From the IMG/VR virus record IMGVR_UViG_3300047551_001636, positions 1-46,516 of that record: a DNA stretch of 46,516 bases. One strand, given 5' to 3'. The notes under the pieces were generated by a model, which searched no databases, had not been told where the DNA came from, and was given only the letters and a program-made list of their open reading frames with translations. The translations under genes and the position numbers were made by a program. This DNA comes from a virus. Position 1 is the stretch's first letter; every line of letters starts with the position of its first letter. Shown here one piece after another: positions 1,614 through 42,750 of the stretch.

Positions 1614-4210
1614 TATTTCTTTTTAGGAGTTTTGGCAGCTCTACCTTTAGCGTTCAACTTAGCAATCTCTAAGTCGTTCTGCTGGTTTTCTCTAGCCACC
1701 TTTAATTTCTCTCTTTCCAAATCTAGCTTTTGAGCATTCTGTACCATTTTAGACTGAATGTCAGCCATCTTAGCAACATGTTCTTTCATTGTTCTAGACT
1801 GTTCTGCAGCTAACTTATTGATTTCCAATACATCAGGAACACCTGAAGCATCTGCATCTGTTAAGCCAGCACCCATAGATTTAGCTTCGGCATTGATCAG
1901 TGCAATCTCCTTCTTATTGATTCTATCCAGTTCTTTCTGAGTGTTATCATTAACAATTTCTTGTTCTGCCTGAAGCTGAGCTTGTTGAAGCTGAGCAGCA
2001 GCGATTTCTCTTTGTTGTTCAAGTTGTTGCTGCTGTTGTTGCATTTGCTGATTCTCCATCATGAACTGTCTGTCTCTCAAGTCTTTAAACACCTTCTTCA
2101 TTTCTCTCATAGACTTGGTGCTGTACAGTTCAATTACATCATACAGAGAACCACCGTTCTGCATCAATGGTTGAGCCAATTGACGCAATTCGTTAAACAT
2201 CTGTGTATCCTCAGGACGATTAGTCAAGAACACTTTCAGGTCACGGAATTTCAGGTCACTACCATTTACAGAAACAAATGCTGATTCACCTTCACTGGTG
2301 ATATAACTCAGTGTAGATTGAGGCTTCTTACTTTCTACGTACAGAGCAGCGTCAATAATAGCTTGATACAACTGACCCATTACATACTCGTGAGCAATAA
2401 ACAATGGTTCTGTCTGAGCATATGATTGAGAAACAGCAGTGTTTACGCCTGTAGCAGATTCACTAGAAGTGATTGATCCTAAACGTTGTCTAGACAAACC
2501 TACCAGTTCCCAACACTCATTCTTTAACTGTTGAGCCAGGGTGTATCTAGATTGTATTTCTTGTGTACGTGTAAGGTCAATGTCTCTGAACTGATTAAAG
2601 CTAGATGGACTCTTGAGGTTCTCAGGACTATCATCAATGAACACCACACCTCTGTTACGAGCTTCCATTTCCCAGATGTCTAATGCATCTTGAGCATCAC
2701 CATCCTTAGGAACAGGAATGTGTCTGATGGATGTCAAATACACCTTACCCACTTCTTTCTCTAACAGTTTGTAGAGCTGGTTCATACAAACATTGTACAA
2801 CACCTGGAAAGGTTTCATGAGGTCAACCAAACTCTTTGCCTCTGTGTTCTTCACTTCAAATGTTGTACCAATAATAGGACAGTAGTTGAGGAGTTTGAAA
2901 GGTTTGACATGATAGATGTCTGGACCAATTTTAATACCCTGGTACCACTGATTAATCCAACCCCATTCCAAAGACTGTTGTGTAGGAATTGTACCAGACT
3001 TGTAGTTTTCATCTACAAGCATGGATTGCTCGTTACCAAGCTCATCCAAATATATCACCTTACCAATCTTTTTCTTACTAATCCAATAAGCTCTCACTAC
3101 AACATACTTGTAACCAAAAGAAGAAACATTGGATGTGAGTCCTAAGAAATCCTTGAGACCATCATTGTTCTCCTTCATTTCACTCTCGATAATCATACGA
3201 GTCTGAAGAACCAGTGGATCAAACGTATCGTATTGAACTGAGTCAATACCTGGTGTCACATTAGGATTACCCAAGTTTGATTCACGGACATTAATAAGTC
3301 CATAATCTTGGAGAGAACTTCTTAGATGATCAATCTCTTCTTTAGTGAGGTCAGGAATACTTTCAATAATCTCTGAAAGCTCCATAACTTGAACAGTACC
3401 TGCAGCATAAGCACCTTGAGCTCTCCCTGTAGGGTCAGAGATATACTTTCTATCAGGCGTTGTAAGAAACCATGTATTTTTTGGGTTAGCCACTTCAATA
3501 TTAAATCCAAGCTTTGAGTTGTCTTCATAGATGTGATAAAATTCTCTAGCTGAAATCAATAAGTCACGGAAAGCATCTTCACTCTTTTCCTTCAAGTTAA
3601 ACTCTGCCTTTTGACATGTCAGTACATGGTTTGCCCATTTTTCAGCAACAGATGTGTAGCTGTCCAGACTTTCTTTCACCTGTTCAAAGGTGAGTTGCTC
3701 CAATTCCTCTTCATCAATTTCTACACCTTCAATAGCAGCTTTCTCAAGAATTTTTTGTTTAGCCTGAGCTAAAACATACTGTTGCAGAATTTCAGTTTTG
3801 AACTGCAATTCTTCAGCCTTACTATCATCATCAAACGCCTTCACCCTGAATGTATCAGGGCGCTTGGAAATCTCACCCACCAGATTGTTCACAGGTGTGG
3901 TGATGATTGAATACATTTTTACGTATGCAGGAAGTTGCAAATCAGCTGTAAGTACATCTGTGAAACTTCTCACCTCTGGTTCCTGATAGAAATCTTCCAT
4001 TCTCAGGATACCTTTCATCAGGTCATAGTTCTTCACAAAGGTGTCACGATTCTTCACATACTCAGCATACGCCTTGTTTGCAAAGTAGTCCATCGTGTTC
4101 TTTATCCAACTCTCATCCTGTTTTTCCTTATCAGTTTTGAACTGGTCAGGAAATATGTTCAAATAGGCATACCTGATGGTAGCGTCTTTTGTATATCTAA
4201 TTATTGCCAT
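1613..4210 (-). CDS. Portal protein
   Basis: 865 residues, directly downstream of TerL, in the size range of portals in crAss-like phages. The protein is mostly alpha/beta with a long central body. A Gln-rich helical segment (about residues 700-760, a run of MENQQMQQQQQQLEQQ type) is followed by a Lys-rich C-terminus ending in TPKKK. Portals form the dodecameric ring at one capsid vertex through which TerL pumps DNA, and the C-terminal helices fit the crown/barrel. The identification rests on length, the TerL-portal order and the overall look, not on a short diagnostic motif. Its start codon lies inside the TerL stop region (shared base 4210), so translation is coupled. Confidence 0.8.
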   Translation of the reverse strand: MAIIRYTKDATIRYAYLNIFPDQFKTDKEKQDESWIKNTMDYFANKAYAEYVKNRDTFVKNYDLMKGILRMEDFYQEPEVRSFTDVLTADLQLPAYVKMYSIITTPVNNLVGEISKRPDTFRVKAFDDDSKAEELQFKTEILQQYVLAQAKQKILEKAAIEGVEIDEEELEQLTFEQVKESLDSYTSVAEKWANHVLTCQKAEFNLKEKSEDAFRDLLISAREFYHIYEDNSKLGFNIEVANPKNTWFLTTPDRKYISDPTGRAQGAYAAGTVQVMELSEIIESIPDLTKEEIDHLRSSLQDYGLINVRESNLGNPNVTPGIDSVQYDTFDPLVLQTRMIIESEMKENNDGLKDFLGLTSNVSSFGYKYVVVRAYWISKKKIGKVIYLDELGNEQSMLVDENYKSGTIPTQQSLEWGWINQWYQGIKIGPDIYHVKPFKLLNYCPIIGTTFEVKNTEAKSLVDLMKPFQVLYNVCMNQLYKLLEKEVGKVYLTSIRHIPVPKDGDAQDALDIWEMEARNRGVVFIDDSPENLKSPSSFNQFRDIDLTRTQEIQSRYTLAQQLKNECWELVGLSRQRLGSITSSESATGVNTAVSQSYAQTEPLFIAHEYVMGQLYQAIIDAALYVESKKPQSTLSYITSEGESAFVSVNGSDLKFRDLKVFLTNRPEDTQMFNELRQLAQPLMQNGGSLYDVIELYSTKSMREMKKVFKDLRDRQFMMENQQMQQQQQQLEQQREIAAAQLQQAQLQAEQEIVNDNTQKELDRINKKEIALINAEAKSMGAGLTDADASGVPDVLEINKLAAEQSRTMKEHVAKMADIQSKMVQNAQKLDLEREKLKVARENQQNDLEIAKLNAKGRAAKTPKKK

Positions 4211-9480: not shown

Positions 9481-9675
9481 ATGAAAAAGTATGTATTGCT
9501 TCAGATGCCAGACAATTCTTATTCTGTTAACACTTTTGAACAGTGGGAAGCCAATCCTGTTGGTAAGGTGGTGGACACGAGTTCTAACAGACAAGTTCTT
9601 GAGAATGAAGCTGATCAACGTAATTACGAGCGTGAACAGCAATTGGAATTTGATTTGTATGATTATAGCTTCTAA
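9481..9675 (+). CDS. Small acidic protein, unknown function
   Basis: 64 residues starting MKKYVLLQMPDNSYSVNTFEQW and ending in the acidic/aromatic tail 'LEFDLYDYSF'. The frame is open further upstream to 9382, but the ATG at 9481 is chosen because it sits behind 'aacaac', the same leader as the gene at 9887, and the upstream part has no protein-like composition. It is followed by an intrinsic terminator. Confidence 0.65.
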   Translation: MKKYVLLQMPDNSYSVNTFEQWEANPVGKVVDTSSNRQVLENEADQRNYEREQQLEFDLYDYSF

Positions 9676-9691
9676 ATCAATTAGTTATAAG

Positions 9692-9722
9692 AAAAAAGAG
9701 CCTATTACAGGCTCTTTTCTTT
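9692..9722 (+). terminator. Intrinsic terminator
   Basis: AAGAGCCT (9696-9703) and AGGCTCTT (9709-9716) form an 8-bp stem with a 5-nt loop, flanked by an A run and followed by TTTTCTTTC. Confidence 0.85.
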
Positions 9723-9744
9723 CTTCAATCAAAAACCAATCTAT

Positions 9745-9882
9745 ATGTACGAATTCATCACAATGTACACAACGTTCAGAGTAACGGATGTGTACCCATC
9801 AGCACTCAATCCAACTTTTGATGCTGTTTGTCTCGTTTATCCTAATGGAATGCCATCAATTTTTTACCTATCTAAAAACTAA
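9745..9882 (+). CDS. 45-residue small protein, unknown function
   Basis: ATG at 9745-9747, stop at 9880-9882. The product begins MYEFITMYTTFRVTDVYPSA and ends NGMPSIFYLSKN. It fills the gap between a terminator and the next gene and ends four bases before that gene's ATG, which supports it as a real small gene. The amino acid mix (aromatic, beta-prone) is protein-like, but no family is recognised. Confidence 0.55.
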   Translation: MYEFITMYTTFRVTDVYPSALNPTFDAVCLVYPNGMPSIFYLSKN

Positions 9883-9886
9883 CAAC

Positions 9887-10105
9887 ATGAAAAACAAAAT
9901 CATTGGAGCAATTTCCTTACTAATCGCATTTGTTATTATGTTCACCTCACCAGTGATATATGATAACTATTTTAGTTATTTCCAACTGGAGAAAACAGGT
10001 GGAGCAGGTTTGGTTGTAAGTCTTTCTCTTGCATTTGCAATTTACATCTTCGGTGGAATTGCATTTGAATTTCTCACCAAAAAACAGGACAATCATGAAA
10101 GCTGA
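9887..10105 (+). CDS. Small membrane protein with two predicted TM segments
   Basis: 72 residues from the ATG at 9887 (leader 'aacaac'). Two hydrophobic segments, about residues 5-22 (IIGAISLLIAFVIMFTSP) and 43-62 (GLVVSLSLAFAIYIFGGIA), flank a short aromatic loop; the tail is charged (TKKQDNHES). It is probably an inner-membrane protein. The frame extends upstream to 9788, but that part overlaps the 45-residue gene. The 3' end overlaps the next gene by 11 bases. Confidence 0.65.
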   Translation: MKNKIIGAISLLIAFVIMFTSPVIYDNYFSYFQLEKTGGAGLVVSLSLAFAIYIFGGIAFEFLTKKQDNHES

Positions 10106-14000: not shown

Positions 14001-14033
14001 AAAACAGCCCTTGAAATATAGGGCTGTTTTTAT
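14001..14033 (+). terminator. Intrinsic terminator overlapping the tmRNA promoter
   Basis: AAAACAGCCC (14001-14010) and GGGCTGTTTT (14021-14030) form a perfect 10-bp stem with a 10-nt loop, followed by TATT. The TTG of the tmRNA promoter lies in its loop. Confidence 0.88.
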
Positions 14034-14041
14034 TATCTTTG
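14011..14041 (+). promoter_or_regulatory. Bacteroidetes-type promoter of the tmRNA gene
   Basis: TTG (14011-14013), a 20-bp spacer and TATCTTTG (14034-14041) match the Bacteroidetes consensus. The mature tmRNA 5' end (14055) is 14 bp downstream, so a very short 5' leader is expected for RNase P removal. Confidence 0.75.
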
Positions 14042-14054
14042 TCAAAAAGCATAT

Positions 14055-14454
14055 GGGCCCGTATTGGTTTTGACAGCAAAGGAGTGGGTATGTACACATG
14101 CAGAGAGATGATACTGTCTCTTAATACTGTATCGAAAAACAAATGCTAAGACTCGTTCTCAGCGTGTAGCAGAAGGTGAAGCTATCCTGGCTTCTATCTT
14201 CCAGACTGAAGCAGTAGCTGCCTAAGTCCTACGGGGTAGTTCATACCTGGCAACATAAACTGAACAAACTGTTTTCCTGGTTTTCTCAAAACTAGGTGGT
14301 GGAGCAGTCACAAACCAGTGACTCCAAAATCCTTACCGCACTCTTAGGATATAAGTGAGTGTTTACGGTGCAGCAGCAATGCAGTACTAAGCATGTGAGA
14401 CGTTGTATGTACAAACTATTTGTTTGGACAAGGGTTCGACTCCCTTCGGGTCCA
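14055..14454 (+). ncRNA. ssrA: Phage-encoded transfer-messenger RNA (tmRNA)
   Basis: The 5' end GGGCCCG (14055-14061) pairs with CGGGTCC (14447-14453) in a 7-bp acceptor stem with the G3-U70 pair that specifies alanine; A at 14454 is the discriminator, and CCA is not encoded. The T-arm is AAGGG, TTCGACT, CCCTT. CACATGC near 14096 pairs with GCATGTG near 14391 in the long P2 helix. A tag frame ends at TAA 14223-14225; if resumed at GCT 14145 it encodes 26 residues, beginning AKTRSQRVAE and ending TEAVAA. That is much longer than the 9-residue tags of Bacteroides I recall, and the end is VAA rather than LAA. tmRNA with host SmpB rescues stalled ribosomes and tags the product for proteolysis. 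A hairpin AGTCAC/GTGACT near 14306-14324 fits the pseudoknot ring. Confidence 0.92.
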
Positions 14455-14480
14455 CTTAGTTGTTAGTAGATTGGTAACAA

Positions 14481-14516
14481 ACCCCACTGTATTTCTATAC
14501 TGGTGGGGTAATTTTA
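14481..14516 (+). terminator. Terminator after the tmRNA
   Basis: ACCCCAC (14481-14487) pairs with GTGGGGT (14503-14509), with an inner GTAT/ATAC helix, followed by AATTTTAAA. The T run is modest. Confidence 0.75.
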
Positions 14517-14534
14517 AATCATTAATCAAAAGAT

Positions 14535-14738
14535 ATGACAAACAAAATTTGGCATAAAGTTGAAATAGCAACAGAAGATCAAAATGTTTCAATCTATCCT
14601 ACAGAAGGATTTAATGGACTTGTTATTGAAGCAAAAGAAATGAATAATTCTCCAAGTCCAAGACTCTATCTCAACAGGAACGAAATGGAACTGTTGATAT
14701 TGAAAATGAAAGAGATGATGGATTATGTAGAATCTTAA
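14535..14738 (+). CDS. 67-residue protein inside the RNA locus, unknown function
   Basis: MTNKIWHKVEIATEDQNVSI at the start reads as beta strands, followed by 'LYLNRNEMELLILKMKEMMDYV', a C-terminal helix. The fold resembles small beta-beta-alpha phage proteins. It is the only protein gene between the tmRNA and the structured RNAs. Its stop codon lies one base before the closing stem of the RNA element at 14740, so the transcript continues from mRNA straight into structured RNA. Function unknown. Confidence 0.7.
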   Translation: MTNKIWHKVEIATEDQNVSIYPTEGFNGLVIEAKEMNNSPSPRLYLNRNEMELLILKMKEMMDYVES

Positions 14739-14739
14739 A

Positions 14740-14854
14740 TATCTATGGGTGTATGTGTTTATTGCGTTGGGCGATGCCCATAAATACAATTTCAACTGGG
14801 GTTTCTGGGAAACACGCAAACCAAGTGAATAGCCCACACAAAAGCCCATAGATA
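14740..14854 (+). ncRNA. Compact multibranched structured RNA (element A)
   Basis: TATCTATGGG (14740-14749) pairs perfectly with CCCATAGATA (14845-14854). Inside, TTGCGT (14762-14767) pairs with ACGCAA (14814-14819) and encloses two hairpins: TGGGC/GCCCA (14768-14772 and 14776-14780, GAT loop) and GTTTC/GAAAC (14801-14805 and 14809-14813, TGG loop). Possible long-range TTCA/TGAA contact. All helices are exact and nested, which is not expected by chance. No known RNA class was recognised; it could be a processing signal, an exonuclease-blocking fold or a regulatory RNA. Confidence 0.65.
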
Positions 14855-14871
14855 TATAAGATAAGTTCTTT

Positions 14872-14947
14872 GTAGTTGGTGTGGCCATAGAAGTGCAGGC
14901 TGCTGGATTTATTCAGTCGGAGTTAACCCAACCCTGCCACCAACTAC
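14872..14947 (+). ncRNA. 76-nt stem-loop RNA with 10-bp terminal helix (element B)
   Basis: GTAGTTGGTG (14872-14881) pairs perfectly with CACCAACTAC (14938-14947); an inner helix GCAGG (14895-14899) / CCTGC (14933-14937) follows after an asymmetric internal loop. The 76-nt length is tRNA-like, but there is no T-loop or anticodon arm, so it is not called a tRNA. The 10-nt sequence TAAGTTCTTT occurs just before it and again just after it, as direct repeats. Confidence 0.5.
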
Positions 14948-15017
14948 ATTTTTAAGTTCTTTAACAACTACTGATTGACTACAAACAAGCTCTTGAGCAG
15001 TTATCAACGGCTGTCAA

Positions 15018-15546
15018 CCCTAGTTGAATAGGGTGAGTCTTAACCATGTCAGAGTAAGGAGAGTATTCTCACAGTTCTAAGATGTGAGTAGTTTGGGTTG
15101 ATGTGGCAAGCGGTTACCCGAGGTAACTTAATCATGAATAAACATGAGTAACGCTTACTACCCTACTTAGAAGGCAGTAGTTGTTATCTTCTATGTTGTC
15201 TGTGAATCACATTAAACAGTCAGTCGTTAAACATTGATACGACTTTAAACAAAGAAGGTTACCCTGATGACAGGGTTGCCCACGCTAAGAGAGTAGGTTT
15301 ATACCACGCTTAGAAAGTCGGGAAGGAGTAATCCACACGTGTTGTTCCAAGGGCATGGAACTCTCGATTAAAGTAACAGATGGGTCTTCTACGTGATTTC
15401 CCAGAGACTGTACAACACGAATGAGTGCCAAGCAAGCGTAGTTATCAGAGGAACGATCACCTCTTTGGGTTCCCAGCCCATAATACAACGAGATATATAA
15501 CTACGTGACCCTACTCTTACAGAGGTAGGTGTAATCAACTAAGACT
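15018..15546 (+). ncRNA. Large (about 530 nt) highly structured non-coding RNA (element C)
   Basis: No protein frame is plausible, but exact helices fill the region: CCCTA/TAGGG (15018-15022, 15029-15033); closing helix AGTCTTA (15036-15042) / TAAGACT (15540-15546); CTCACA/TGTGAG (15068, 15083); a three-way junction closed by AAGCG (15108-15112) / CGCTT (15152-15156) with GTTACC/GGTAAC and TCATG/CATGA hairpins; ACTAC/GTAGT (15157, 15177); CGTGTTGT (15338-15345) / ACAACACG (15412-15419); CGTAGTTAT (15437-15445) / ATAACTACG (15497-15505); CCTAC/GTAGG (15510, 15525). Size, ornate fold and position beside tRNA-like genes in a phage recall the GOLLD and ROOL classes; membership in either is unproven. 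Ends are approximate. Confidence 0.7.
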
Positions 15547-15584
15547 TGAAAGCATAATGTAAGACAAGAGGGTGCTAAACAAAC

Positions 15585-15757
15585 AGTCAGGTGGTGGAAT
15601 TGGCAGACCGTCTCTTGGTTGAGAAGGCTTATAGTCCATGTTCGGGGATTAACTCTTTGGCGTACCGACAACTACAGTGAAGTACTGAATGTACCTCTCC
15701 TGATGTAGCGACAGAGTTTTAACTATAAGTATACATGTTCGAATCATGTCCTGACTA
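15585..15757 (+). tRNA. tRNA-like RNA with giant variable arm (element D)
   Basis: Acceptor AGTCAGG (15585-15591) pairs perfectly with CCTGACT (15750-15756), discriminator A 15757. The T-arm is ACATG-TTCGAAT-CATGT (15733-15749). The D-arm 'TGGTGGAATTGGCAGA' is of class II (Leu/Ser) type. The anticodon hairpin is abnormal: TCTC-TTGGTT-GAGA, a 6-nt loop on four pairs. The variable region is about 110 nt, closed by CTTATAGT (from about 15628) / ACTATAAG (15722-15729), with nested AACTCT/AGAGTT, GTAC/GTAC and CAGT/ACTG helices. A normal class II tRNA is about 85 nt, so this is either a derived tRNA without decoding function or a new tRNA-mimic RNA. Type 'tRNA' is used for want of a better class. 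Confidence 0.55.
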
Positions 15758-15791
15758 CAGCGCAGTTTTTAGAATGATTAGGTTGTTCTAT

Positions 15792-15832
15792 ACCCGTTAT
15801 TTCTGCGGATACTAAATTAAAAACTAACGGGT
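15792..15832 (+). repeat. Spacer hairpin between the two tRNA-like RNAs
   Basis: ACCCGTTA (15792-15799) pairs perfectly with TAACGGGT (15825-15832), 8 bp, loop 25 nt. It has no T run and is probably part of the same precursor transcript rather than a terminator. Confidence 0.5.
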
Positions 15833-15836
15833 AAAC

Positions 15837-15971
15837 AGTCAGGTGGTGAAAGTGGTAAACACGCAAGGTGCAGGGACCTTGTGAAGATAAAGCGAAATGT
15901 CGCCCCGTACAGCTTATAGCTGGTGACACATATGAAAGCTCTTCTTGCAGGTTCGATTCCTGCTCTGACTA
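15837..15971 (+). tRNA. tRNA-like RNA with giant variable arm (element E)
   Basis: Acceptor AGTCAGG (15837-15843) pairs with TCTGACT (15964-15970; one G-U), discriminator A 15971. The T-arm is GCAGG-TTCGATT-CCTGC (15947-15963), perfect. The D-arm GTG-AAAGTGGTAAA-CAC is normal for class II. The anticodon stem CAAGG/CCTTG is perfect but the loop has 8 nt (TGCAGGGA) without U33. The variable arm of about 60 nt is closed by GAAGA/TCTTC and holds GCGA/TCGC or alternatively TGTC/GACA, plus CAGCT-TAT-AGCTG. The acceptor is identical to element D and both follow AAAC. If it decodes, CAG (Leu) is the only obvious anticodon; a non-decoding role is more likely. Confidence 0.6.
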
Positions 15972-32945: not shown

Positions 32946-33310
32946 TAATTTGACTAGGTTATTTGGCACAATTTTTATTGTGGCAAAAGATTTTCAGTCC
33001 CAGCCCCATGTAAAAAACAGGGTGAATTGCTGGAAACTCCTGCAGTGAAGCAGGACAATCAGCAGCCAAGCTTGGATAGTAATATCCTTGAAGGTTCAAC
33101 GACTAACAACCGAGTCCTACCAAGTAAAGTTGAGGACAGTAATGTTGACACGAGTGCCCTGCAACAGACAGTAAATATTAAGTCCAGAGGACTTACCATC
33201 TATCCTGGTGGTATAGTTTCTGGAGGACTTAAGTCTGTTGATGATATAGTCTGAGCTACATGGTAACATGTAGAATTTAGGGATAAAGAGCCCTAAAGAT
33301 AACAGAATCG
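32946..33310 (+). mobile_element. Small ORF-less group I intron in rIIA
   Basis: 365 nt. P1: exon ATGGGGT (32939-32945) pairs with intron GCCCCAT (from about 33002) with U-G at the splice site. P10: exon 2 TGGGATT (from 33311) pairs with the bases just 5' of the guide (AGTCCCA). The final intron base is G (33310). Core motifs 'AATCAGCAGCC', 'GGTTCAACGACTA' and 'GATATAGTC' match the RNR intron closely. The only frame inside (33027-33254) is low-complexity core sequence and no endonuclease is present, so mobility would need help in trans. Confidence 0.88.
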
Positions 33311-37201: not shown

Positions 37202-38101
37202 ATGGGATATTATATATATCAGCATGTAAGACTTGATAGTAATGAGATTTTTTACATCGGTAAAGGAACTAAAAAGCGCAAAGGAAATGTGTATTTTAGA
37301 GCTTTTACTAAAAATTCTAGAAACCAGTATTGGAAAAACATTACGCAAACAACTTCTTACAAAGTAGAAATTCTAGAAGAGTATGAGTCAGAACAAGACT
37401 GTCTAAAAAGAGAGACAGAATTGATCAGACAACATGGTTATTCTTGGAATGGAACTGGTACTTTGTGTAACATGATTGAAGATACTGACCAAATTAGAAA
37501 GTTAGCTAGAATCCAGTCAAAGAAGAAAAACTCTAAGGAGGTTCATCAGTATGATTTGAACGGCAACTATATAAAATCTTTTCCAAGCATTAAAGATGCT
37601 AAGAAATATTATCCTTGTGATATATATAATGCTGCTTCTGGAAGATCAATAACTGCTGGTGGATTCCAATGGAGAACTATTAAGTATGATAAGTTATCAC
37701 CACACAATGAAACACTGAATGAAATAGAAAAAAGTAAGGTGGTATATCAGTATGATATAGACAACAATCTTATAAAAGAATGGAAAGGTACAAAAGAACC
37801 CTCTTTAAAACTAAATATAAATAGAGGAGCTATTAGAAATTGTTTGTCTAACTTAGCAAAAACTGCTGGTGGCTTTAAATGGTCTTATTCTAAGCTTTTA
37901 AAAGATGACAGTATAAAGCGATATGGAGTGTACAAAGAAGATCAGTTAATCTTCTCTAATAACAATTTAAAAAACTGTGCAGAATACTTAAACTTAAATC
38001 CTTATTCTGTTTCTGTCTTCTTAAATAGACAAAAACCTTATAAAGGGTATATATTTAAGTGTCACGATGAAAAAACTAAATCTGAAAAACATGGAAAATA
38101 A
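37202..38101 (+). CDS. GIY-YIG endonuclease with NUMOD1 repeats (free-standing)
   Basis: 299 residues. N-terminal nuclease: 'YYIYQHVRLDSNEIFYIGKG' (GIY variant YIY and YIG), Arg in 'KRKGNVYFRAF', Glu in 'CLKRETELIRQHG'. Three NUMOD1-type modules follow: 'YDLNGNYIKSFPSIKDAKKY', 'YDIDNNLIKEWKGTKEPSLKL' region, and 'KEDQLIFSNNNLKNCAEYL', each ending near a 'GGF.W'-like strand. The layout is of a homing endonuclease. It overlaps the next gene by 11 bases and has its own promoter. Confidence 0.88.
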   Translation: MGYYIYQHVRLDSNEIFYIGKGTKKRKGNVYFRAFTKNSRNQYWKNITQTTSYKVEILEEYESEQDCLKRETELIRQHGYSWNGTGTLCNMIEDTDQIRKLARIQSKKKNSKEVHQYDLNGNYIKSFPSIKDAKKYYPCDIYNAASGRSITAGGFQWRTIKYDKLSPHNETLNEIEKSKVVYQYDIDNNLIKEWKGTKEPSLKLNINRGAIRNCLSNLAKTAGGFKWSYSKLLKDDSIKRYGVYKEDQLIFSNNNLKNCAEYLNLNPYSVSVFLNRQKPYKGYIFKCHDEKTKSEKHGK

Positions 38102-41578: not shown

Positions 41579-42551
41579 ATGGATTTAGGATTGGAAGCGT
41601 TAAGTAAGATTACGGTGTTTAGTAAGTATGCAAAGTATGTTCCTGAGCTAAAGAGAAGAGAAACTTGGGAAGAGATTGTTGCAAGGTATCAGCAGATGAT
41701 GATTAAGAAGTATCCAAAGCTGGAAGAGCAGATTATGCAGACTTCCCAGTTCATTTTGGACAAGAAAGTGCTTCCTTCAATGAGAGCTCTTCAGTTTGCA
41801 GGAGCTGCAGCTGAGGTGAATAACTCTCGTATTTACAACTGTTGCTATCTTCCAATTGATAGTATACACAGCTTTAGCGAAACAATGTTCCTTCTTTTAG
41901 GTGGTACAGGTGTGGGCTATAGTGTTCAGAAACAACACGTTGCACAGCTTCCTGACATTAAAAAACCAGGTAAAGCTCGTAACTATCTAGTTGAAGATAG
42001 TATTATGGGTTGGGCTGATGCTGTGAAGGTGTTGATGAAAGCCTATCTGGAAGGTGGTTTTATGCCCAAGTTTGATTTCAGAGCTATTCGTAAGAAAGGT
42101 GCCAGACTGATCACTGCTGGTGGGAAAGCGCCTGGTCCAGAACCTCTGAAGATGTGTTTAGCTCACGTACAGGCTATTCTGGACAGAAAACAAGAAGGTG
42201 ATAAACTTTCTCCTCTGGAGTGCCATGATATCCTGTGTCATATTGCAAATAGTGTTCTAGCAGGTGGTATTCGTAGAAGCGCTATGATAAGCCTGTTCAG
42301 TCATGATGATGAAGAAATGATTACCTGTAAGTATGGTAATTGGTGGGAAACCAATGAGCAGCGTGGTAGAGCTAATAACTCAGCTGTATTGCTTAGAGGA
42401 TCTGTAGGTAAAGAGGAATTTGACAGCCTCTGGAAGCGCATCGAAGCTTCTGGATCTGGTGAGCCTGGCATCTATTGGACCAACAATCTGGATTGGGGAA
42501 CCAACCCATGTTGTGAAATTGCTTTGCGTCCATACCAGTTCTGCAATCTCT
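41579..42551 (+). CDS. nrdJ: Class II (B12-dependent) ribonucleotide reductase, exon 1
   Basis: Residues 1-324 of a 641-residue protein made by joining 41579-42551 with 43282-44234. Signatures: 'PSMRALQFAGAAAEVNNSRI' with the first active-site Cys in 'YNCCYLP', 'LLLGGTGVGYSVQKQH', 'ANSVLAGGIRRSAMISLF' and the radical-site motif 'TNPCCEIALRPYQFCNL' (N.C.E). It reduces ribonucleotides to deoxyribonucleotides with adenosylcobalamin. The intron interrupts right after CNL in the active-site region. The product has no cone-type ATP domain. Confidence 0.88.
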
Positions 42552-42750
42552 AAACTACCTCATGGAGATTTAAAACCCTGAGAATTGCTGGGAAGTCTGA
42601 CCACATAAAGGTGAAGATAATCAGCAGCCGAGCCTAGAAATAGGAAGGTTCAACGACTAGTCGAAAGACGTACACTCAAGTGAGTGGAAGCACAGGGCCC
42701 CGAAAGGGTGATGATATAGTCTGAACTCTATAGAAATATAGAGATGAAAA

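Follow-up and report, generated by a model that had tools for sequence, protein, structure and literature searches.

Large ornate RNAs encoded by phages, such as ROOL and GOLLD, are to our knowledge few, and have not yet been assigned a function. ROOL forms an octameric RNA-only cage, and both RNAs can reach high cellular levels where this has been measured. They are RNA-only oligomers that are found in phages, near tRNA islands and without a protein partner, and GOLLD combines a conserved region with a less conserved one (PMC12286853).

The window analysed here (the whole stretch of 46,516 nt) is a 46.5-kb IMG/VR contig of a tailed phage, with a P22-like portal, a phage large terminase, rIIA/rIIB and a UvsX-like recombinase as markers; relatives found via rIIB include contigs of 110–119 kb. 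At 14055–15971 it carries an island of structured RNAs that comprises, in order, a tmRNA, two short helix-closed RNAs, a region in which the initial annotation had placed a single large RNA of about 530 nt (15018–15546, hereafter the reported region), and two tRNA-Leu-like genes. The proposal was right in substance, in that a new class of large ornate RNA does lie next to tRNA-like RNAs and a phage tmRNA, the last of them at 14055–14457; the region holds two RNAs, however, of which RNA-1 extends 55 nt further 5′ and RNA-2 about 32 nt further 3′ than the proposed unit. We regard it as near certain that these are two separate RNA families, both absent from Rfam. The members of the island are as follows.

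14055..14457, + strand: tmRNA, the first member of the island (Rfam RF00023, 78.5 bits; ARAGORN)
14739–14855 and 14871–14948: two short RNAs closed by 11-bp helices (AUAUCUAUGGG/CCCAUAGAUAU and UGUAGUUGGUG/CACCAACUACA)
14963..15185, + strand: RNA-1, complete, 223 nt, closed and multi-branched with a probable pseudoknot (14 homologues aligned)
15186..15221, + strand: linker between RNA-1 and RNA-2, in which conserved structure was not found
15222..15578, + strand: RNA-2, complete, about 357 nt (covariance model R1; more than 100 IMG/VR loci)
15585–15757 and 15837–15971: two tRNA-Leu-like genes whose acceptor, D and T arms are normal and whose interiors are abnormal and very long

The suggestion that the region is a divergent GOLLD or ROOL found no support in covariance-model searches. 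A cmscan against all 4227 families of Rfam 15 gave nothing at E ≤ 5 in the reported region, and the same search of 12 homologous loci gave nothing at E ≤ 0.5; membership of either family is ruled out by the absence of an Rfam match in the window and these loci. The verdict on GOLLD rests on these full Rfam scans, and the ROOL model (RF03087) matched none of 50 phages that carry RNA-2, in a search in which the controls gave no match either. Like ROOL, RNA-2 is an ornate non-coding RNA that is encoded by phages or prophages, often near tRNA islands, and has no protein partner, but it is much shorter and has another conserved core. GOLLD is likewise a phage RNA that lies beside tRNAs and has conserved and less conserved parts; it usually exceeds 800 nt, whereas RNA-2 measures 214–477 nt among 50 members. 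The variability of GOLLD covers a whole 5′ domain and its 3′ region is universally conserved, whereas RNA-2 varies in four arms that are interleaved with a conserved core. The tmRNA is a neighbour in the same island and also a large structured phage RNA, but RNA-2 has no tRNA-like domain, tag frame or match to the tmRNA model, and tRNA-like ends together with a tag frame occur only at 14055–14457. Group I introns, which are common in such phages, share compact folds and GNRA loops with RNA-2, but the reported region has no intron-model match and no exons. Neither ARAGORN nor Rfam called a tRNA cloverleaf over RNA-1 or RNA-2. The window itself has two group I introns (32960–33273 and 42511–42743; Rfam 96 and 68 bits) and an HNH/homing endonuclease gene (37202–38101).

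BLAST of the reported region returned 25 consecutive identical bases in Cellulophaga phage phi14:2; they lie in a stretch beside the tmRNA of that phage that is annotated as small proteins on the opposite strand. Three 'hypothetical proteins' (gp007–gp009; L002 3106–3431) lie there opposite RNA-2; they are probably spurious, and RefSeq marks features as removed. Given such wrong-strand annotation, similar RNAs are probably hidden elsewhere. Among 50 related contigs, one (G001) is 94% identical to the window across 14949–15276 and replaced beyond, and another (G004) contains fragments of the reported region. DNA patterns built from blocks common to the window and its relatives or phi14:2 were scanned through IMG/VR. 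The pattern GACCCTACTC-gap-GAGGGTGC was found in 98 stretches and ACAACACRAATGAGTNC in at least 119, and the two occur in order in 39 locus pairs. The third pattern, TCTAAGATGTGAGTRGTTT, was found in 18 stretches without the other two; these 18 loci hold a compact RNA with the end CAGTAGTTGTT, and tRNA or tRNA-like genes frequently come after it. Because the RNA-1 pattern occurs without the RNA-2 patterns, we divide the region into RNA-1 and RNA-2 with a 36-nt linker between them. When run against a set of phages that carry RNA-2, the RNA-1 model matched only G001 and G086; the two RNAs adjoin in the window and G001 and lie 52 kb apart in G086. The 7-bp helix (15036/15540) that had been proposed to close a single RNA joins a variable arm of RNA-1 to an exchangeable arm of RNA-2, and in G001 its 5′ strand reads AATCTTA and its partner is absent; we reject this helix. 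An earlier description of these RNAs was not found in the open-licence PMC literature.

Folding energies give modest z-scores (−2.5 for the region as a whole, −3.2 for RNA-1 and −2.1 for RNA-2). Unlike folding energy by itself, the comparative evidence for structure is overwhelming. The elements of RNA-1 are listed below.

14963..14973 (AACAACUACUG) with 15175..15185 (CAGUAGUUGUU), + strand: closing helix P1, covarying in alignment A2
14974..14986 / 15091..15102, + strand: helix P2, covarying in A2 (14974–14979 with 15097–15102; 14982–14986 with 15091–15095)
14988..15066, + strand: variable arm P3, with a covarying closing stem and a sequence unlike that of most homologues
15068..15088, + strand: hairpin P4 (CUCACA..UGUGAG), near-invariant
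15076–15081 (UCUAAG, P4 loop) / 15166..15171 (CUUAGA), + strand: probable pseudoknot, six pairs that can form
15103..15161, + strand: variable arm P5, found in the window, G001 and L329 only and replaced in other homologues

In the trimmed alignment of RNA-1 (A2, 14 sequences), 90.6% of cells are paired compared with 32–46% for slid partners, 19 of 45 pairs show double changes and the covariation score was reached by none of 500 shuffles; RNAalifold applied de novo to A2 returned identical nested helices. P1 is 99.4% paired, with both sides changed in 6 of its 11 pairs, and P2 is 96.4% paired, with 5 pairs double-changed. The stem of P3 is 87.8% paired and shows double changes in 6 of 7 pairs; the inner hairpin of this arm (ACCCUA/UAGGGU) becomes AUCCU/AGGAU in G001. 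P4 and the pseudoknot are paired in 98.6% and 98.8% of cells, respectively. Both are almost invariant, and covariation is therefore silent on both, neither for nor against the pseudoknot, which we consider probable. The three-way junction noted earlier at 15108–15156 is present; it is peripheral, lying within P5, where most homologues have another sequence, and covariation specific to it is absent. The RNA-1 model had no match in cultured phages.

RNA-2 consists, from 5′ to 3′, of hairpin A, variable domain V1, ACAUAAAGAUA, hairpin C, helix D (which encloses hairpin E and V2), AAUGAGUUCUCAGC, helix F with V3, and a 3′ module.

15222..15244, + strand: hairpin A (helix 15222–15227/15239–15244; loop UAAACAUUGA at 15228–15237)
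15245..15324, + strand: variable domain V1, including the hairpin ACCCUG-AUGA-CAGGGU (15261–15276)
15325..15334, + strand: hairpin C (GGA-GUAA-UCC) with a GNRA tetraloop, covarying in A3
15338..15345 (CGUGUUGU) with 15412..15419 (ACAACACG), + strand: helix D, covarying in the seed set and A3
15345..15360, + strand: hairpin E (UUCCA/UGGAA in the window)
15361..15411, + strand: variable cassette V2, swapped among phages
15420..15436, + strand: invariant single-stranded core (AAUGAGU..AGCAAG; AAUGAGUUCUCAGC in most members)
15437..15505, + strand: helix F (15437–15445/15497–15505), with the V3 cassette within
15507..15578, + strand: 3′ module (GACCCUACUC..GAGGGUGCUAA) with the V4 cassette

The seed alignment of RNA-2 (A1), from which the variable loops were excised, is 87.2% paired with double changes in 26 of 46 pairs; slid controls reach 40–51%. 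Model R1, run on 87 loci outside the seed set, gave 50 matches with 44 distinct sequences (A3), in which 89.5% of cells are paired compared with 33–47% for slides. As A3 was fitted to R1, which favours the pairing percentage, the stronger measure is the count of compensatory changes: both sides changed in 40 of 46 pairs, in 231 cells. Covariation across homologues, the absence of which had been named beforehand as telling against a structured RNA, is thus present in both RNA-1 and RNA-2. The region had also been described as having no credible protein frame, and a conserved one had been named as evidence to the contrary; none of 50 RNA-2 members has any of the six frames open throughout, and the spacings between conserved anchors represent all three phases.

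The individual helices bear this out. Hairpin A, whose loop UAAACAUUGA was found at 55 of 81 loci, has double changes in 4 of 4 stem pairs in A3, and we place the 5′ end of RNA-2 at this hairpin because conservation is absent upstream. V1 ranges from 2 to 191 nt across homologues and is closed by UGUAAAU/AUUUACA in most members. Hairpin C is 91.2% paired, with double changes in 6 of 6 pairs (A3). Helix D, the 8-bp helix (15338/15412) of the initial annotation, pairs in 99.0% of cells of the seed set, where 6 of 7 pairs are double-changed, and in 97.7% of those of the non-seed set; it is sometimes replaced whole, for example UGUGUUG/CAACACA by ACGUGAG/CUCACGU. Hairpin E (98.3% paired, double changes in 4 of 6 pairs in the seed set) reads UUCCCUU-GAGA-AAGGAA in most members, with a GNRA loop. 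The predicted 9-bp helix (15437/15497) corresponds to helix F, which is 90.6% (seed) and 95.6% (non-seed) paired; the arm is missing in some members. The 3′ module has two helices, ACCCU/AGGGU (15508–15512/15569–15573) and UCUUAC/GUAAGA (15515–15520/15559–15564). Its invariance in the seed set follows from the choice of the seeds by that motif, and the independent set has double changes in 4 of 5 of its pairs. A pairing of the RNA-2 ends (AGG/GCU) suggested by RNAalifold had no covariation and was dropped.

Concerted exchanges among homologues demonstrate, at the level of sequence, a two-base tertiary contact in RNA-2, in which CA of loop A (15232–15233) would pair with UG of the core (15422–15423). 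The main type combines CA in the loop of hairpin A with AAUG in the core. In L165 (loop UGAAUGUCGA) the two change in concert to UG and AACA, a combination also found in L146 and L218 (loop UUAAUGAAAU), and L155 (loop UUAACGAAGU) combines CG with AACG. The prediction of CG for AACG was met by L378 (loop UUAGCGAAGU), which came from a later scan; the scans for the altered core bases AACA and AACG returned mostly chance matches. In this comparison, which includes L193 without a recognisable hairpin A and omits the ambiguous L151, the contact comprises two base pairs and has three largely independent origins.

The arms behave differently from the core. When the four variable segments are compared across the 50 RNA-2 members, 38 pairs of members have one or two segments in common at ≥80%, and every one of these pairs is unrelated in one or more of the remaining segments. 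The window and G001 have flanks that are 96–97% identical but entirely different RNA-2 arms and tRNA-like interiors. As read from these sequences, RNA-2 is demonstrably a fixed core with four arms that are swapped as cassettes. It is unusual for RNA arms to be traded in this way around a fixed core, and the pattern points to an RNA surface under selection. The most conserved site of RNA-2 (AAUGAGU/UCUCAGC) is itself interrupted by an insertion at seven loci:

L169 (− strand, ORF 9558–10043), L236 (+ strand, from 6719), L083 (+ strand, about 1990–2145), L137, L192, L219 and L274

The insertion is conserved in its 5′ hairpin (ACUUACCCUAGU..GGGU) and at its 3′ end, and it contains an HNH (HNH_3) gene in L169 and, by sequence, in L236. 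It matches no Rfam group I or group II intron model and appears intron-like.

RNA-2 was found at more than 100 IMG/VR loci, in phi14:2 and in one contig of a Sphingobacteriales MAG (L343), the only one of ten bacterial genome contigs with pattern matches that contains it. The RNA-2-bearing contigs reach 373 kb. RNA-2 is usually single-copy: 42 of 50 contigs were matched, and second matches are mostly pieces of one locus, G075 excepted. Among cultured phages, the full RNA-2 occurs only in the crAss-like phi14:2, at 2908–3359 and about 0.7 kb upstream of the tmRNA. In phi4:1 and phi17:2 (L346 and L347, about 2963–3095), the 3′ module (GACCCUACUC..GAGGGCGCUAA) stands alone in intergenic sequence before gp172 and gp176, respectively.

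RNA-2 resides in tRNA/tmRNA islands of large phages. tRNA genes terminate directly before it at L173, L177, L187 and L202, and a tmRNA begins 16–150 nt behind it at L122, L130, L134, L139, L185, L198 and L207. At about half of 66 RNA-2 loci, ARAGORN found no tRNA or tmRNA within up to 5 kb per side, in a survey in which some flanks are short and odd tRNAs are missed. Within 50 relatives of the window phage, ten have a tmRNA and five have RNA-2, and all five carriers of RNA-2 have a tmRNA (hypergeometric P = 1.2 × 10−4). It is on the same strand in these carriers, within 130 nt in G046, G024, G040 and G049 and within about 850 nt in G001; in the window the distance is 760 nt. This co-location may reflect only a common island that gathers mobile RNA genes. 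No protein family recurring beside RNA-2 was found among its neighbours.

What these RNAs do can be addressed at present through their anatomy and surroundings. We would put at about even the chance that RNA-1 and RNA-2 are two new trans-acting families cut from a phage RNA island, taking identity and mechanism jointly; for the mechanism itself our view is tentative and falls short of even. On this view, both RNAs would be transcribed together with the rest of the tmRNA/tRNA island, host nucleases of tRNA maturation would release them, and in the infected cell they would work in trans in their folded form. The core of RNA-2, with its GNRA hairpins, loop–core contact, AAUGAGUUCUCAGC and GUGCUAA end, would form a functional platform that binds a component shared by many Bacteroidota hosts. 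The linkage to tmRNA and tRNAs makes the translation or RNA-decay machinery the most plausible partner, and diversification of the arms would be either unconstrained or driven by host RNA-targeting defences. We infer the trans-acting role, processing route and binding partner from anatomy only. A bolder form of this reading, in which RNA-2 is a modular machine with a fixed, pseudoknotted core that docks on one conserved host component and with four sockets into which phages would shuffle prefabricated RNA arms, is unlikely; if true, RNA and not protein would be the fast-evolving host interface of large Bacteroidota phages. Alternatively, RNA-2 could be a functional analogue of ROOL and GOLLD, an RNA-only homo-oligomer (cage or ring) in which the arms fill the shell and the core contacts are intermolecular. 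By analogy this is possible, if doubtful: RNA-2 occupies the same niche (PMC12286853), folds ornately, with invariant loops, hairpins of the GNRA type and, as in GOLLD, both a conserved and a variable part, and occurs in phages of which none of 50 tested has ROOL, although the controls of that search were silent too, and it is half the size or less (214–477 nt compared with about 600–800 nt) and homologous to neither. The tmRNA adjacent to all five RNA-2 carriers of the window's phage group, and the tandem of RNA-2 then tmRNA in unrelated phages, would fit an accessory of trans-translation that tunes the rescue of stalled ribosomes or protects tmRNA/SmpB. We give this little credence, as most RNA-2 loci have no tmRNA in the flanks examined and a shared insertion island may explain the linkage.

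The exchangeable arms could instead be baits or evasive surfaces against host RNA-targeting defences, held on a fixed scaffold. Their hypervariability and swapping as cassettes, and their replacement together with the tRNA-like interiors between the near-identical flanks of the window and G001, are consistent with such a counter-defence decoy, but structured RNAs normally vary in their peripheral stems, recombination that joins conserved anchors may be neutral and no defence protein is linked to the arms; we consider a decoy improbable. A cis-acting leader or gene-linked regulatory element is more improbable still: although the 3′ module alone precedes gp172 (phi4:1) and gp176 (phi17:2), and some loci have an ORF whose start lies a few dozen bases past RNA-2, no downstream gene family is common to the loci and a tRNA or tmRNA often stands there instead. 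A self-splicing intron or its relic would fit the ornate fold and the presence of phage group I introns in the window, but the region has no Rfam intron match, conserved exons are absent on both sides and RNA-2 is itself the target of an HNH-associated insertion, which makes this reading highly improbable. Least probable of all is one 530-nt RNA, a divergent GOLLD or ROOL. Its two halves adjoin in the window and G001, but they occur apart in other phages, which refutes it, and it has neither an Rfam match nor, in G001, a closing helix. Compared with these readings, we favour two trans-acting families released from the island. What is new is the two covariation-supported families; their niche, the phage RNA island, was already known. 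As RNA-2 occurs in a cultured phage–host pair (phi14:2 and Cellulophaga baltica), the function of such RNAs is testable by deletion.

Several further observations concern the island. The tag encoded by the window tmRNA is unusually long (AKTRSQRVAEGEAILASIFQTEAVAA, 26 residues). One match to a Bacteroidota-type promoter (14011–14041) lies directly before the tmRNA; such matches number 21 on one strand, too frequent for meaning. The sequence TAAGTTCTTT (14861–14872 and 14953–14962) stands before two of the structured RNAs and is possibly a promoter or processing signal; it is absent from most RNA-1 homologues. ARAGORN called neither tRNA-Leu-like gene of the window, and in the second of them (15837–15971) a candidate anticodon loop of 8 nt contains CAG and the variable arm is giant. 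The counterpart of the second short RNA (14871–14948) in G001 keeps its stem around a different interior, and extra helix-closed units are inserted alongside. The acceptor and T arms of the tRNA-Leu-like genes recur in G001 and further relatives, where they surround wholly different interiors.
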